Shown one piece after another: positions 33,497 to 57,454 of a stretch of DNA of 64,000 nucleotides; within the stretch, counting starts at the first letter, position 1; every line of letters starts with the position of its first letter. The position numbers and the translations under genes are program-made. Source of the DNA: a virus. Under the pieces are notes generated by a model, which was not told where the DNA came from, did no database searches, and saw nothing but the letters and a program-made list of their open reading frames with translations. The stretch covers positions 28,767-92,766 of IMG/VR virus record IMGVR_UViG_3300034101_003424. One strand, 5' to 3'.

Positions 33497-34636
33497 TTAA
33501 TGTGAATCCCCGACATTATTTTTTTCGCTGTATATTAAGTAATCTGGGTTTATTACTTTAGCTACTTTTGATCTATTTCCATCGACAGCTTTTATAACAA
33601 TACCTTCGTGAGGAACTTTAGTGTTGTTTATAAAATTATTGAATACAAATTTATTTTTTACCTCTTCTGAATAAAGTCCTTTGTACAACACTTCAACGTA
33701 TGGCAATTTTAAATAATCATTAACTACAAATTCAGCTGAGGTTAAATTAAAATACTTTTTGTTTAATTCAACATCAAAAATACAAAGCTGTATATCATCT
33801 AATCCGTACTCATAATTTTTTTGAATACCTTTACCGTATATTTCTCCATAGATTATGAATCCACTACCTATAGAAGTATCGTTACCTTTAATACTTATGT
33901 TCTTTTTAACAAGATTCCAAAGCTTGTTTTTAATGTCATATTTTTTTTCAATATCATACCAAACATTAGTATCATAAAAACCCTGAGTGTCTGATCCTTT
34001 TTCTACGTTATGAGAACCTACTACAAATTCATACTCGCCCCAACCTAAATTAAAACCAAAGAACTTTTTAATTTTATCCCATAGAGATAATTTAGTTTTC
34101 TTAACAATTCCATACCTTGCATTTGTTCCATGTATTTTCCTTGTTATTTCTACGTAATCATATTCATCAAAAATATTAGGAACATTTTTAAAATTAGGAA
34201 ATTTGTAGTAAATATAAAAATTGGGATTTTCATGGTACCTTCTTTTTTTTCCACTAGCCAGGGTAATAAGTCTAGCTGGGGGTTCATACTTATATATTTT
34301 AAGTACGTCCATTAAATCCTCCCCATATTCCCTTTTATTCTTAGGAATTAAATCAATTGGCATTAATAGGCATTCGCTATAAACGCCTCTTAATTTAATT
34401 GTCCTAACTCTTTCTTTACTCCGGAGATAATTCGTTACCCCTAATTTTTCTGAAATTTCTAAAGGTATTACAGCATCTGTTGTAGCACAGACAACTAAAT
34501 CTCCAATTGAGTGAGAACCTTTCTTTACAATACAAAACCATCCATTTACAACAGCTAGTTCTATATTATCAGCATCCGGAATATCTAGAATATTATTTAT
34601 TGCGGACACAAAACAAACACTATTTTCATTTTTCAT
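33497..34636 (-). CDS. RNA ligase, DRB0094/Rnl5-like, 379 aa
   Basis: An N-terminal OB-like domain (DADNIELAVVNGWFCIV, about 1-110) is followed by a nucleotidyltransferase domain. Motif I is K167 in KIHGTN, motif III IIYGEIYG, motif IV HEGIVIK and motif V K-V-INPDYL. The enzyme should adenylate itself and seal RNA 5'-phosphate to 3'-OH ends. A kinase and a phosphoesterase gene and the tRNA-like RNAs lie within 6 kb on the same strand, pointing to an RNA repair or processing set. Confidence 0.87.
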   Translation of the reverse strand: MKNENSVCFVSAINNILDIPDADNIELAVVNGWFCIVKKGSHSIGDLVVCATTDAVIPLEISEKLGVTNYLRSKERVRTIKLRGVYSECLLMPIDLIPKNKREYGEDLMDVLKIYKYEPPARLITLASGKKRRYHENPNFYIYYKFPNFKNVPNIFDEYDYVEITRKIHGTNARYGIVKKTKLSLWDKIKKFFGFNLGWGEYEFVVGSHNVEKGSDTQGFYDTNVWYDIEKKYDIKNKLWNLVKKNISIKGNDTSIGSGFIIYGEIYGKGIQKNYEYGLDDIQLCIFDVELNKKYFNLTSAEFVVNDYLKLPYVEVLYKGLYSEEVKNKFVFNNFINNTKVPHEGIVIKAVDGNRSKVAKVINPDYLIYSEKNNVGDSH

Positions 34637-36517: not shown

Positions 36518-37249
36518 TTAATCATCTGTTAATTGTCCTACGCTGACTTCACCATCTTCAATAATTAGATATTCCCGGCTCATTCCTAGGGTATCAATAT
36601 AGTAGTACCGGCCTCCTGTAGTTTGTCCCTTAATATCAATTTTCTTTTGCTGCGTGTGTCCTACAACCTGGATGTACTCTTTCCGAAAGGTATCATAGTT
36701 GGATTCCTGCAATGACTTAGGCCGGATCCATATAGGGGAGGATTCAACGCTATCTCCATAAGGATCCCACCCGGCAAATTTAAAAGCGCGGGGAGAACCA
36801 ATAAATAAATCATTAACAATAACATCAATATCATCCTTCATATTTACCTTCATCTTATTACCCCAGTACTCTAACCATTTAGAACTAACTCCCGCATGAC
36901 TAAATAAATAATTATCCATCTTATAACACATAGATAACTCATTTATATGTTCCATCAATAACGACTGAATAGTATGATGATGTCCTCTCTGATGTCCTGA
37001 ATACGTCTCATTAGCAAAAGGCATGTAATGAAAGTCATGATTACCAATTAACATAATAACATCTGCTTTTGAATTGTTCTTAAAATCAATCAAACGTTTA
37101 AAATTATGTAATTGAACTATAATTCTTATACTTTCATGTGTATCAAAGTAATCTCCTACAAATATGAATCTATCTGCATCATTTTCTTTTTCAACAATTT
37201 GTTCCCATGATATCCTACCATGAATGTCTCCAATAATTACACTTTTCAT
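36518..37249 (-). CDS. Calcineurin-like metallophosphoesterase, 243 aa
   Basis: Metal-binding motifs GDIHGR (7-12), GDYFD (32-36), GNHDFHY (about 67) and later His motifs (FSHAGVS and VGHTQ) are complete. Enzymes of this family remove phosphates from proteins, nucleotides or RNA ends, including 2',3'-cyclic phosphates. Its place between the RNA ligase and the P-loop kinase makes RNA end healing attractive, but the substrate is not shown by sequence. Confidence 0.88.
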   Translation of the reverse strand: MKSVIIGDIHGRISWEQIVEKENDADRFIFVGDYFDTHESIRIIVQLHNFKRLIDFKNNSKADVIMLIGNHDFHYMPFANETYSGHQRGHHHTIQSLLMEHINELSMCYKMDNYLFSHAGVSSKWLEYWGNKMKVNMKDDIDVIVNDLFIGSPRAFKFAGWDPYGDSVESSPIWIRPKSLQESNYDTFRKEYIQVVGHTQQKKIDIKGQTTGGRYYYIDTLGMSREYLIIEDGEVSVGQLTDD

Positions 37250-37806: not shown

Positions 37807-38208
37807 TTATAATGCTAATTCAAATCTTTCTAACATCTTTTCTATGGTTTCCTGCGGACAATCATGAACATTTTTACTACCATGTCTATTTTCCACAACA
37901 ATAGAGAATACTTGATAGCCATGAGTTTTAGCTAAGTCAAAATAAGGTTTCATTTCCCATTCTTGCGTAAATGTATTAGATACCACAATCCTGTCTACAT
38001 TAACTTGCTCTCCATCTGAACTCATCCAAGCTGACGTTTGAGACTGGCAATAATTGTGTGCTAATTTGAGTTTAGAACTATCAAATTTATATTCACCATC
38101 TTGCATAAAATACTGATCCGCTTCAATGTGAACACCGCCCAATAATTTTGCTAGAGTGGACTTACCGGACCCTGGAAGGCCTCTTAGTAATAAAAGTGTT
38201 TTACTCAT
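37807..38208 (-). CDS. P-loop kinase, polynucleotide-kinase-like, 133 aa
   Basis: Walker A is G10-LPGSGKST with K16. HIEADQYF supplies the acidic pair typical of 5' polynucleotide kinase domains. IVVSNTFTQEWEMKPYFDLA matches the lid region of the AAA_33 family. It should phosphorylate a 5'-OH of nucleic acid or a small substrate. No phosphatase domain is fused; a separate metallophosphoesterase lies upstream. Confidence 0.8.
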   Translation of the reverse strand: MSKTLLLLRGLPGSGKSTLAKLLGGVHIEADQYFMQDGEYKFDSSKLKLAHNYCQSQTSAWMSSDGEQVNVDRIVVSNTFTQEWEMKPYFDLAKTHGYQVFSIVVENRHGSKNVHDCPQETIEKMLERFELAL

Positions 38209-38416: not shown

Positions 38417-38470
38417 TTTTAAATTTTTTAGTAAATAACATCTTCTTGACATCAAGAAGCTAATAAAAGT

Positions 38471-38562
38471 AGTCAGGACAGGATTCGAACCTGTATGAGA
38501 GATAACCATTCCTTTATTCCCTCTATCTGTTAATTAGCGTCTACCAATTCCGCCACCTGACT
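38471..38562 (-). tRNA. tRNA-like RNA 1, Leu-like body, anticodon unclear
   Basis: 92 nt. Acceptor AGTCAGG/CCTGACT, D-arm GGCGGAATTGGTAGACGC and T-arm ACAGG-TTCGAAT-CCTGT are all canonical. The part between D-arm and T-arm is 42 nt, about 10 longer than in a class II tRNA, and a standard 7-nt anticodon loop does not form. One folding gives a 5-bp stem (AATTA/TGGTT) with a 22-nt loop. It may be an intron-bearing or degenerate tRNA. Confidence 0.6.
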
Positions 38563-38636
38563 GTCTTTAGATTTTTAAAACCCACCTTTTACAAGGCAAG
38601 GAAACTCCATCTTATGTTTTTTGCGTGGCTAGGAAA

Positions 38637-38721
38637 GGATTCGAACCAATACGAATGAAGCGTAACCTATTTATCATTCTACCTTTATAACGATAGCGTC
38701 TACCAATTTCGCCACCTAGCT
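38637..38721 (-). tRNA. tRNA-like RNA 2, anticodon unclear
   Basis: Acceptor GCTAGG/CCTAGC and D-arm GCGAAATTGGTAGACGC are good. The T-loop TTCGAAT is present but its stem is weak. The anticodon arm can form ATCGTT/AATGAT around a 10-nt loop containing TAA and AAG. The weak T-stem suggests decay or an atypical RNA. Confidence 0.55.
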
Positions 38722-38728
38722 ATGTTTT

Positions 38729-39115
38729 TTAAGATATTAATTTATGTATCGTTAATGTGTCTCTGCTTTCTTCTTTGCTAATTCCTATTAAATAGCTCTT
38801 AACATTGTTAACAATTGGTTTGTTATAAAATGTTTCAATGTAACGTAATGTTACTTTCTTTTTTTCGGATTGTTTTTGCGTTAAATCGATTTTAGCATTT
38901 TTGACATCACTAATTGCTAATAGTATTTGATTTTTATAACCTGAATTACCATCAATTAAATTTATAACTCGATTTGTTATAATACCATCAACAACTATTC
39001 TGATTTGATGTGATTTTTTACCTTTATGATATGTGATTTTATAATCGTCATAACCAATATGGTTGAAGCCGGTTTCAGTAGCTTCATATTTTGCAATTTT
39101 AAAAATATTTTCCAT
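38729..39115 (-). CDS. Hypothetical protein, 128 aa
   Basis: Not recognised. Start set at the ATG at 39115 (MENIFKIAKYEATETG), just downstream of a host-type promoter. A basic alpha-beta protein with KKGKSHQIRIVVDG-type strands. It lies between two tRNA-like RNAs. Confidence 0.7.
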   Translation of the reverse strand: MENIFKIAKYEATETGFNHIGYDDYKITYHKGKKSHQIRIVVDGIITNRVINLIDGNSGYKNQILLAISDVKNAKIDLTQKQSEKKKVTLRYIETFYNKPIVNNVKSYLIGISKEESRDTLTIHKLIS

Positions 39116-39193: not shown

Positions 39194-39354
39194 TAGCAAG
39201 GACAGGATTCGAACCTGTAAATCTTTTCTCGGATTGAAATCATCGCAATGAATTAATGCGTCTACCAAGTTTAAACATTGACCCCGTAGTGGATTCTAAC
39301 CACATTATTTTCACTACTGGAACGGGGTTGTTTAAACATTCCGCCACCTTGCTA
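39194..39354 (-). tRNA. tRNA-like RNA 3 with insertion in the D-loop
   Basis: 161 nt. Acceptor TAGCAAGG/CCTTGCTA (8 bp) and T-arm ACAGG-TTCGAAT-CCTGT are intact. The D-arm reads GGCGGAAT, then a 70-base insert, then TTGGTAGACGC; removing the insert restores the D-arm of RNA 1. The 39-nt region after the D-arm can form a loop ATTGCGA with U33 and a TGC triplet, but the stem is imperfect. Confidence 0.6.
39269..39340 (-). repeat. D-loop insert bounded by GTTTAAACATT repeats
   Basis: Direct 11-bp copies of GTTTAAACATT at 39269-39279 and 39330-39340 (plus strand). Between them is a structured core: ACCCCGT pairs with ACGGGGT, and GTGG-TTAGAAT-CCAC resembles a T-arm. An alternative 11-bp stem uses GTAGTG/CACTAC. 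Confidence 0.6.
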
Positions 39355-39358
39355 AAAT

Positions 39359-39501
39359 GAGTGTTTTTGTAATATCCCTAGAACACACAAACTATGCTGA
39401 CCTACGATTCAGAGAGCGTCCACGCCAATATTCGACTTGTAATCGAACACTTGTAATCTCTATCTTCGATCCATACCCAGGCCTAGGCAGAGGGCTTTTT
39501 G
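39359..39501. other. Structured non-coding spacer between tRNA-like RNAs
   Basis: No gene is credible. On the plus strand TTCGA-CTTGTAA-TCGAA has the exact anticodon loop of tRNA-Thr(UGU), and a GACCTACGATTCAGAGAGCG stretch looks like an acceptor plus D-arm, but no matching 3' half is seen. ACTTGTAATC occurs twice. It may be a decayed tRNA on the opposite strand. Confidence 0.35.
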
Positions 39502-39657
39502 TAGTCAGGACAGGATTCGAACCTGCAATACTGCCGCACTTCTGCGCTGATACCTTTTTTATTTAACGTAAGGGTTGGCAAACCTCATTACAGTTTTTTA
39601 GTGTCTCCCATCAGGAATCGGCTTGATCAGTGCCGCCCTTGTTCCACCACCTGACTA
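39502..39657 (-). tRNA. tRNA-like RNA 4 with long insertions
   Basis: 156 nt. Acceptor TAGTCAGG/CCTGACTA and T-arm GCAGG-TTCGAAT-CCTGT are intact. The D-arm is split: GTGGAAC, about 30 inserted bases with a CGGC/GCCG hairpin, then TGGGAGACAC. A variable-arm-like hairpin CGCA-GAAG-TGCG precedes the T-arm. The anticodon region is also enlarged, and no standard anticodon is identified. Confidence 0.55.
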
Positions 39658-41381: not shown

Positions 41382-41463
41382 ATAGTCAGGGCCGGACTCG
41401 AACCGGATAAGCAACCATTTTACTGGACTTGGAAACCATTCCTCATTATGCCCACCTGACTAT
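41382..41463 (-). tRNA. tRNA-like RNA 5, anticodon unclear
   Basis: 82 nt. Acceptor ATAGTCAGG/CCTGACTAT (9 bp) and T-arm CCGG-TTCGAGT-CCGG. Unlike the others its D-arm is not Leu-like. A TTTCCAA stretch matches the tRNA-Gly(UCC) anticodon loop but its stem does not close. It contains two AATGGTT copies. Confidence 0.5.
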
Positions 41464-57346: not shown

Positions 57347-57454
57347 AAGTCAGGGTAGGAATCGAACCTACATGATAAGTAGTATAGTTGATTAAGCGAA
57401 AACGTACTTACTTATCTATTCACTTCTAGCGTCTACCATTTCGCCACCTGACTT
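57347..57454 (-). tRNA. tRNA-like RNA 6, expanded anticodon region
   Basis: 108 nt. Acceptor AAGTCAGG/CCTGACTT, D-arm GCGAAATGGTAGACGC and T-arm GTAGG-TTCGATT-CCTAC are perfect. Between D- and T-arms are 57 nt, containing an 8-bp stem GATAAGTA/TACTTATC or alternatively AAGTG/CGCTT with a 22-nt loop. No standard anticodon. Confidence 0.6.

Follow-up and report, generated by a model that had tools for sequence, protein, structure and literature searches.

A conserved structured RNA module in the D-loop of a phage tRNA-Leu-like gene that belongs to a large family without a conserved anticodon arm

Results

Locus 3, a tRNA-Leu-like gene of a virus, carries in its D-loop an insert that forms a structured RNA module of its own, conserved among relatives, and sequence comparison makes it likely that this module is plugged into a non-decoding phage RNA built on a tRNA-Leu chassis. 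Locus 3 lies in a window of 64,000 nucleotides, the whole stretch of DNA analyzed here, which corresponds to bases 28767-92766 of a virus record of 92,766 bases in total. The gene is one of a large family of tRNA-Leu-like RNAs in phages, which seems not to have been described and has no conserved anticodon arm.

Locus 3 carries a folded insert in its D-loop

Locus 3 (39194-39353, with all its parts on the minus strand) has the acceptor stem AGCAAGG/CCTTGCT with A73 at 39194 and reads, in sense order, AGCAAGG, TGGCGGAAT, a 69-nt insert, TTGGTAGACGC, a 39-nt middle, ACAGGTTCGAATCCTGT, CCTTGCT and A. The insert is flanked by GGTGGCGGAAT on its 5' side and TTGGTAGACGC on its 3' side; the D-arm consists of the 5' half TGGCGGAAT (39338-39346) and the 3' half TTGGTAGACGC (39258-39268), and the T-arm is ACAGG-TTCGAAT-CCTGT (39202-39218). 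A first-pass annotation of this DNA had proposed a structured insertion in the D-loop of a tRNA. The insertion is real, and its exact removal restores the usual D-arm; an assembly artefact is excluded because an identical copy of the locus exists in an independent assembly (L012). The gene around it is not an ordinary tRNA: no canonical anticodon arm is present in locus 3 outside the insert, its place being taken by a variable middle (39219-39257) that has an unrelated sequence in the orthologue in L013. ARAGORN reported no tRNA anywhere in the window.

The module extends from one GTTTAAAC to the other (69 nt, 39269-39337) and is supported by its fold z-score, by covariation and by a score of 91.8 bits with model R1. 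Its outer stem pairs GTTTAAAC at 39330-39337 with GTTTAAAC at 39269-39276 and shows two-sided changes in 4 of 6 pairs among the copies described below. The inner stem pairs ACCCCGT (39322-39328) with ACGGGGT (39281-39287), with 98% of cells paired and replacements of A-T by T-A and of C-G by T-A in relatives; both 3' strands were assigned by covariation. A T-arm-like hairpin, GTGG-TTAGAAT-CCAC (39289-39303), has 100% of cells paired, and the single-stranded core is conserved as GTTCYAG..GTRAAAAYAATG. The insert folds with -20.8 kcal/mol against a mean of -11.0 kcal/mol for shuffled sequences (z = -3.6).

The 7-bp stem and the hairpin had both been recognized from the letters, and the accompanying description of a tiny tRNA within a tRNA is fair because the hairpin loop in L165 and L193 is TTCGAAT, a normal textbook T-loop; the covariation backs it as well. 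The 11-bp direct repeat AATGTTTAAAC is also exact (39269-39279 and 39330-39340), and these are its only exact copies in the 64 kb, as holds for GTTTAAAC. The palindromic repeats are indeed present at the edges of the insert, as had been claimed; base pairing between the two lengthens the stem.

Covariation supports the module and relieves its ends of any fixed sequence

Pattern scans of IMG/VR phage contigs provided further copies of the module, from which 14 distinct sequences were aligned. In the three-helix structure 95.7% of cells are paired, and 6 pairs show two-sided changes, in 16 cells compared to 3.7 in shuffles; none of 500 shuffles reached the observed covariation score. As a control, sliding the partners by 1-3 columns reduced pairing to only 32-50%.

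The outer stem is GTTTAAAC/GTTTAAAC in the window, GTTTAAAC/GTTTGAAC in L019, GTTAAC/GTTAAC in L125 and others, ATTAAC/GTTAAT in L172 and AATACGAA/TTCGTATT in L171. Bounding by GTTTAAAC is thus refuted as a defining feature, as other copies close the same stem with different sequences; because the stem differs among copies, the palindrome and the direct repeat are by-products of one choice of stem sequence. The boundary is conserved in complementarity and not beyond. A role of GTTTAAAC as a recombination or splice signal was considered and dropped, since the stem sequence changes with compensation.

The module also stands alone, between two ordinary phage tRNA genes and not in a D-loop in L171 and L180/L183, and in an intergenic position in L181. 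When about 1.7 Mb of gathered loci was searched with a covariance model, no extra copies came up save a weak match in L034 (19 bits, E=0.07), and the module had no match in Rfam. In INPHARED, neither scaffold nor insert was convincingly matched and a search with the whole tRNA-like region was also without match, so that no cultured host-phage pair is known.

The chassis is near-constant and the anticodon arm is missing

Relatives were gathered through relatives of the phage RNA ligase and by a T-arm pattern scan (at least 120 contigs), giving at least 176 elements in records that are fragments. Among the 176 elements listed, U8 is present in 176, A14 in 169 and A73 in 159; the acceptor stem, D-arm and T-arm, like A73, hardly vary and agree with the tRNA consensus, the near-constancy of the acceptor being partly selected because the pattern behind the 120 contigs contained an AGTCAGG-type acceptor. 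The smaller ligase-based sample, free of that selection, shows the same chassis with several acceptors.

A canonical anticodon arm (5-bp stem, 7-nt loop, U33) was found in 13 of the 133 elements listed, against 7.6 in shuffled middles, and U33 with a 7-nt loop is at chance level; among other Leu-type tRNAs of the same loci 19 of 26 have such an arm. The tRNA-like genes occur in several copies per genome. Many relatives also encode full ordinary tRNA sets, so that the tRNA-likes are extras, and some of these phages encode ordinary tmRNAs separately. Rfam 15 and the open papers, where the literature was searched, contained nothing like this family.

Several observations accompany this survey. 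A second conserved tRNA-Leu-like subtype, which has the core GGGTTGACCACAAAGCCGGC and in which a stable hairpin follows the D-arm, occurs at L028:12226-12381 and L034:12227-12374 and also in L057, L087, L101 and L140. L034 alone has a hammerhead-like stretch, TGATGAGTACGAAA, which its sister genes do not have. The tRNA-likes of the family were also seen in short contigs (L167-L170) from genome bins of Neisseriaceae, Peregrinibacteria, Helicobacteraceae and Chitinophagaceae; these are probably phage contigs in wrong bins.

The middles are hypervariable, base-paired and exchanged between relatives

The middles, about 25-150 nt long and mostly dissimilar to one another, stand in place of the anticodon and variable arms, and sequence comparison indicates that they are hypervariable but base-paired modules. 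A position-specific pairing test was preferred to a pseudoknot energy screen, which by itself gave a weak average signal (mean z -0.45). In 34 of the 109 non-redundant middles listed (8.5 expected), the strand that ends exactly 2 nt before the T-stem is matched upstream by a perfect complement, a rule that holds for only about a third of middles and is in part expected of any tRNA-Leu variable arm; with 6-mers the same test gave 16 against 2.4 expected. Many of these partners produce H-type pseudoknots. When the middles of L013 (the locus-3 orthologue), L017 and L023 were aligned, 27 of 27 pairs were kept, 10 of them doubly compensated, and a whole pseudoknot stem is swapped from GTTGAA/TTCAAC in L014 to GAGCAA/TTGCTC in L095. 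Extra T-loop hairpins occur in 10 of the 121 middles listed (0.16 expected).

Most flanking DNA of the window is 94-97% identical to L013, but at loci 1 and 3 the middle of one is unrelated to that of the other. The middle of L013 locus 3 is found again in L017 and L023, there beneath a different D-loop hairpin, and L019 has the window's locus-2 middle beneath that hairpin. As middles recur under different D-loop hairpins in relatives, the two kinds of module are exchanged independently. D-loop inserts are present in about a dozen elements of the sample listed, and those examined have complementary ends; unrelated hairpins occupy the same slot in sister genes, and distant phages have modules in common. 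Such inserts are not restricted to the tRNA-likes, since a tRNA-Gly (UCC) at L028:4093-4185 that looks like an ordinary decoding tRNA carries a small hairpin in its D-loop.

Other tRNA-like genes and neighboring proteins in the window

At least six tRNA-like genes of the locus-3 kind are found in the window, the following all on the minus strand. Locus 1 (38470-38562; acceptor AGTCAGG), whose middle is replaced in L013, is accepted by the Rfam tRNA model in the window scan (38.5 bits), and the tRNA-Leu-like gene at about 57348-57453 (acceptor AGTCAGG), whose middle also occurs at L040 2998, in the whole-record search (36.2 bits). Locus 2 (38626-38721), a tRNA-Leu-like gene with some imperfect stems, reaches 26.8 bits, below the cut-off of 29, and its middle is also found at L019 1340 and in L135. 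Locus 5 (39503-39656), also tRNA-Leu-like, has a different D-loop hairpin (CAAGGGCGGCACTGATCAAGCCGATTCCTGA), and directly upstream of it lies a Bacteroidota-type promoter, TATATTTG (TAnnTTTG type, identified by eye). A further gene (41384-41461; acceptor AGTCAGG) represents a conserved 78-nt subtype. At the gathering threshold and at E<=10, tRNA matches were the only Rfam matches of interest. As side observations, the 78-nt subtype (also in L013, L019, L023 and L035) is near-constant in sequence in distant phages, with a hairpin compensated from GGAA/TTCC to GGGA/TCCC; the minus-strand intergenic region between loci 5 and 3 (39357-39490) has stem-loops, is kept in L013 and was not parsed as tRNA-like; and a 128-aa protein between loci 3 and 2 (38729-39115) has no Pfam match.

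The array is followed directly, on its own strand, by genes for an AAA_33 P-loop kinase-like protein, a probable end-healing kinase (37807-38208), a calcineurin-like phosphoesterase, a probable end-healing partner (36518-37249), and an RNA ligase (phrog_968; 33497-34636, E=2.4e-56). This cassette plausibly forms an RNA end-healing and sealing set. We identified no shared partner protein of the tRNA-likes. TROVE/Ro60-type proteins are encoded in 4 of 72 related records (L125, L178, L179 and L110), three of which carry the D-loop module, and TROVE is absent from the window's own record and from most carriers; TROVE/Ro60 was tested as an obligate partner and dropped.

The hosts of these phages are probably Bacteroidota in many cases. 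The Bacteroidota-type promoter motif lies upstream of only 22 of the 171 elements listed, yet is enriched (6.8 expected). Judged by one large protein, in which identity is about 31% over a third of the length, Flavobacterium phage immuto is among the nearest cultured phages; the score of a Microcystis phage is slightly higher.

Discussion

Beyond the module itself, we tentatively propose a class of non-coding viral RNA that had not been described before, in which a tRNA-Leu chassis with two plug-in sites would provide phages, probably infecting Bacteroidota in many cases, with a modular set of RNA decoys or inhibitors to counter host defenses. The plug-in sites would be the D-loop and the former anticodon/variable region, each bearing structured modules that are exchanged fast. 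The RNA would be transcribed, trimmed like a tRNA by RNase P and RNase Z and given CCA, the elbow and acceptor presumably stabilizing it. A Leu chassis is sensible because long extra arms are tolerated in class II tRNAs and because LeuRS ignores the anticodon, for which reason the RNA may even be leucylated. The variable modules would be the working parts. Judging from the evolutionary pattern, they are probably decoys or effectors in phage-host conflict, since rapid exchange under preserved pairing fits decoys, antitoxin-like aptamers or other RNA effectors, and the nearby cassette would fit a phage exposed to RNA-cleaving defenses.

The first-pass annotation had read the insert as an intron. 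As an intron it would be removed by a nuclease, with the phage kinase, phosphatase and RNA ligase resealing a working tRNA-Leu. The D-arm restored on exact removal, a closing stem that juxtaposes the insert ends and the end-healing enzymes and ligase nearby all suit this reading, which we nevertheless regard as unlikely. It is weakened because the module stands alone outside any tRNA-like gene in several phages; moreover, the same slot is used by unrelated hairpins, splice-site sequence is not conserved, and no bulge-helix-bulge, group I/II core or Rfam match was found (E<=10 over the gene). Excision would yield no decoding tRNA because the anticodon arm is also missing. Decay of tRNA pseudogenes with random insertions would account for lost anticodon arms, for T-arm-like remnants inside some middles and for the imperfect stems of locus 2. 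However, the middles change in ways that preserve pairing around acceptor, D- and T-arms that remain intact, distant phages share modules and genomes have many copies, which makes decay very improbable.

Equally hard to sustain is that these are unusual decoding tRNAs showing an anticodon in an altered arm. They retain tRNA-Leu identity features including A73, and intron-tolerant ARAGORN gives an anticodon for 125 of 167; against this, the anticodons are scattered and mostly require introns of 4-123 nt, U33 with a 7-nt loop is no more frequent than by chance, and many of the phages carry ordinary tRNA sets. The calls with long introns were judged to be forced. Partnership with Ro60/TROVE in the manner of YrlA-type Y RNAs, or a tie to RNA-repair enzymes, would fit the tRNA mimicry, the T-loop modules and the co-occurrence of TROVE and module in three of the four TROVE-encoding records; we consider it very doubtful, as the window's record and most carriers have no TROVE and the tRNA-likes keep the acceptor stem, which YrlA RNAs are not known to have. 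The reading we prefer remains that of a structured module on a non-decoding tRNA-Leu chassis.

To our knowledge, non-decoding tRNA mimics have so far been known as single cases. In the present analysis, one pattern scan led to at least 120 phage contigs that share a conserved chassis and carry many unrelated payloads, which are reassorted between close relatives. Should the RNAs be expressed, they would form an RNA-scaffold system that evolved naturally and could supply new structured RNAs and perhaps anti-defense RNAs. Phage tRNA predictions that look odd or "intron-containing" may also, in some cases, not be tRNAs.

Compared with known systems, the tRNA-likes share with bacterial and phage tRNA-Leu (class II, RF00005) the 7-bp acceptor, U8, the D-arm GGTGGCGGAATTGGTAGACGC, A14, the T-arm GGTTCGAATCC, A73 and a helix strand 2 nt before the T-stem, and differ in having no canonical anticodon arm, a middle of 25-150 nt and structured D-loop modules. 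Bacterial YrlA RNAs, compared by description, are likewise non-decoding tRNA mimics without an anticodon stem; unlike them, the tRNA-likes keep the acceptor, have no Ro-binding stem that we recognized and, in the window's record, no TROVE gene beside them. With tmRNA they have in common a tRNA-like domain, a replaced anticodon region and pseudoknots, whereas they are Leu-type and not Ala-type, have no tag reading frame and are far shorter, and neither Rfam models nor ARAGORN assigned the window genes to tmRNA. Introns of tRNA genes (group I in bacterial tRNA-Leu; archaeal bulge-helix-bulge) are also extra sequence within a tRNA gene, while the present module sits in the D-loop, is too small for group I/II and also occurs alone. 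Finally, the T4 Pnkp/Rnl1 tRNA repair system similarly has a kinase, a phosphatase and an RNA ligase encoded near tRNA-type genes, but the RNAs beside the window's cassette are probably non-decoding tRNA-likes.
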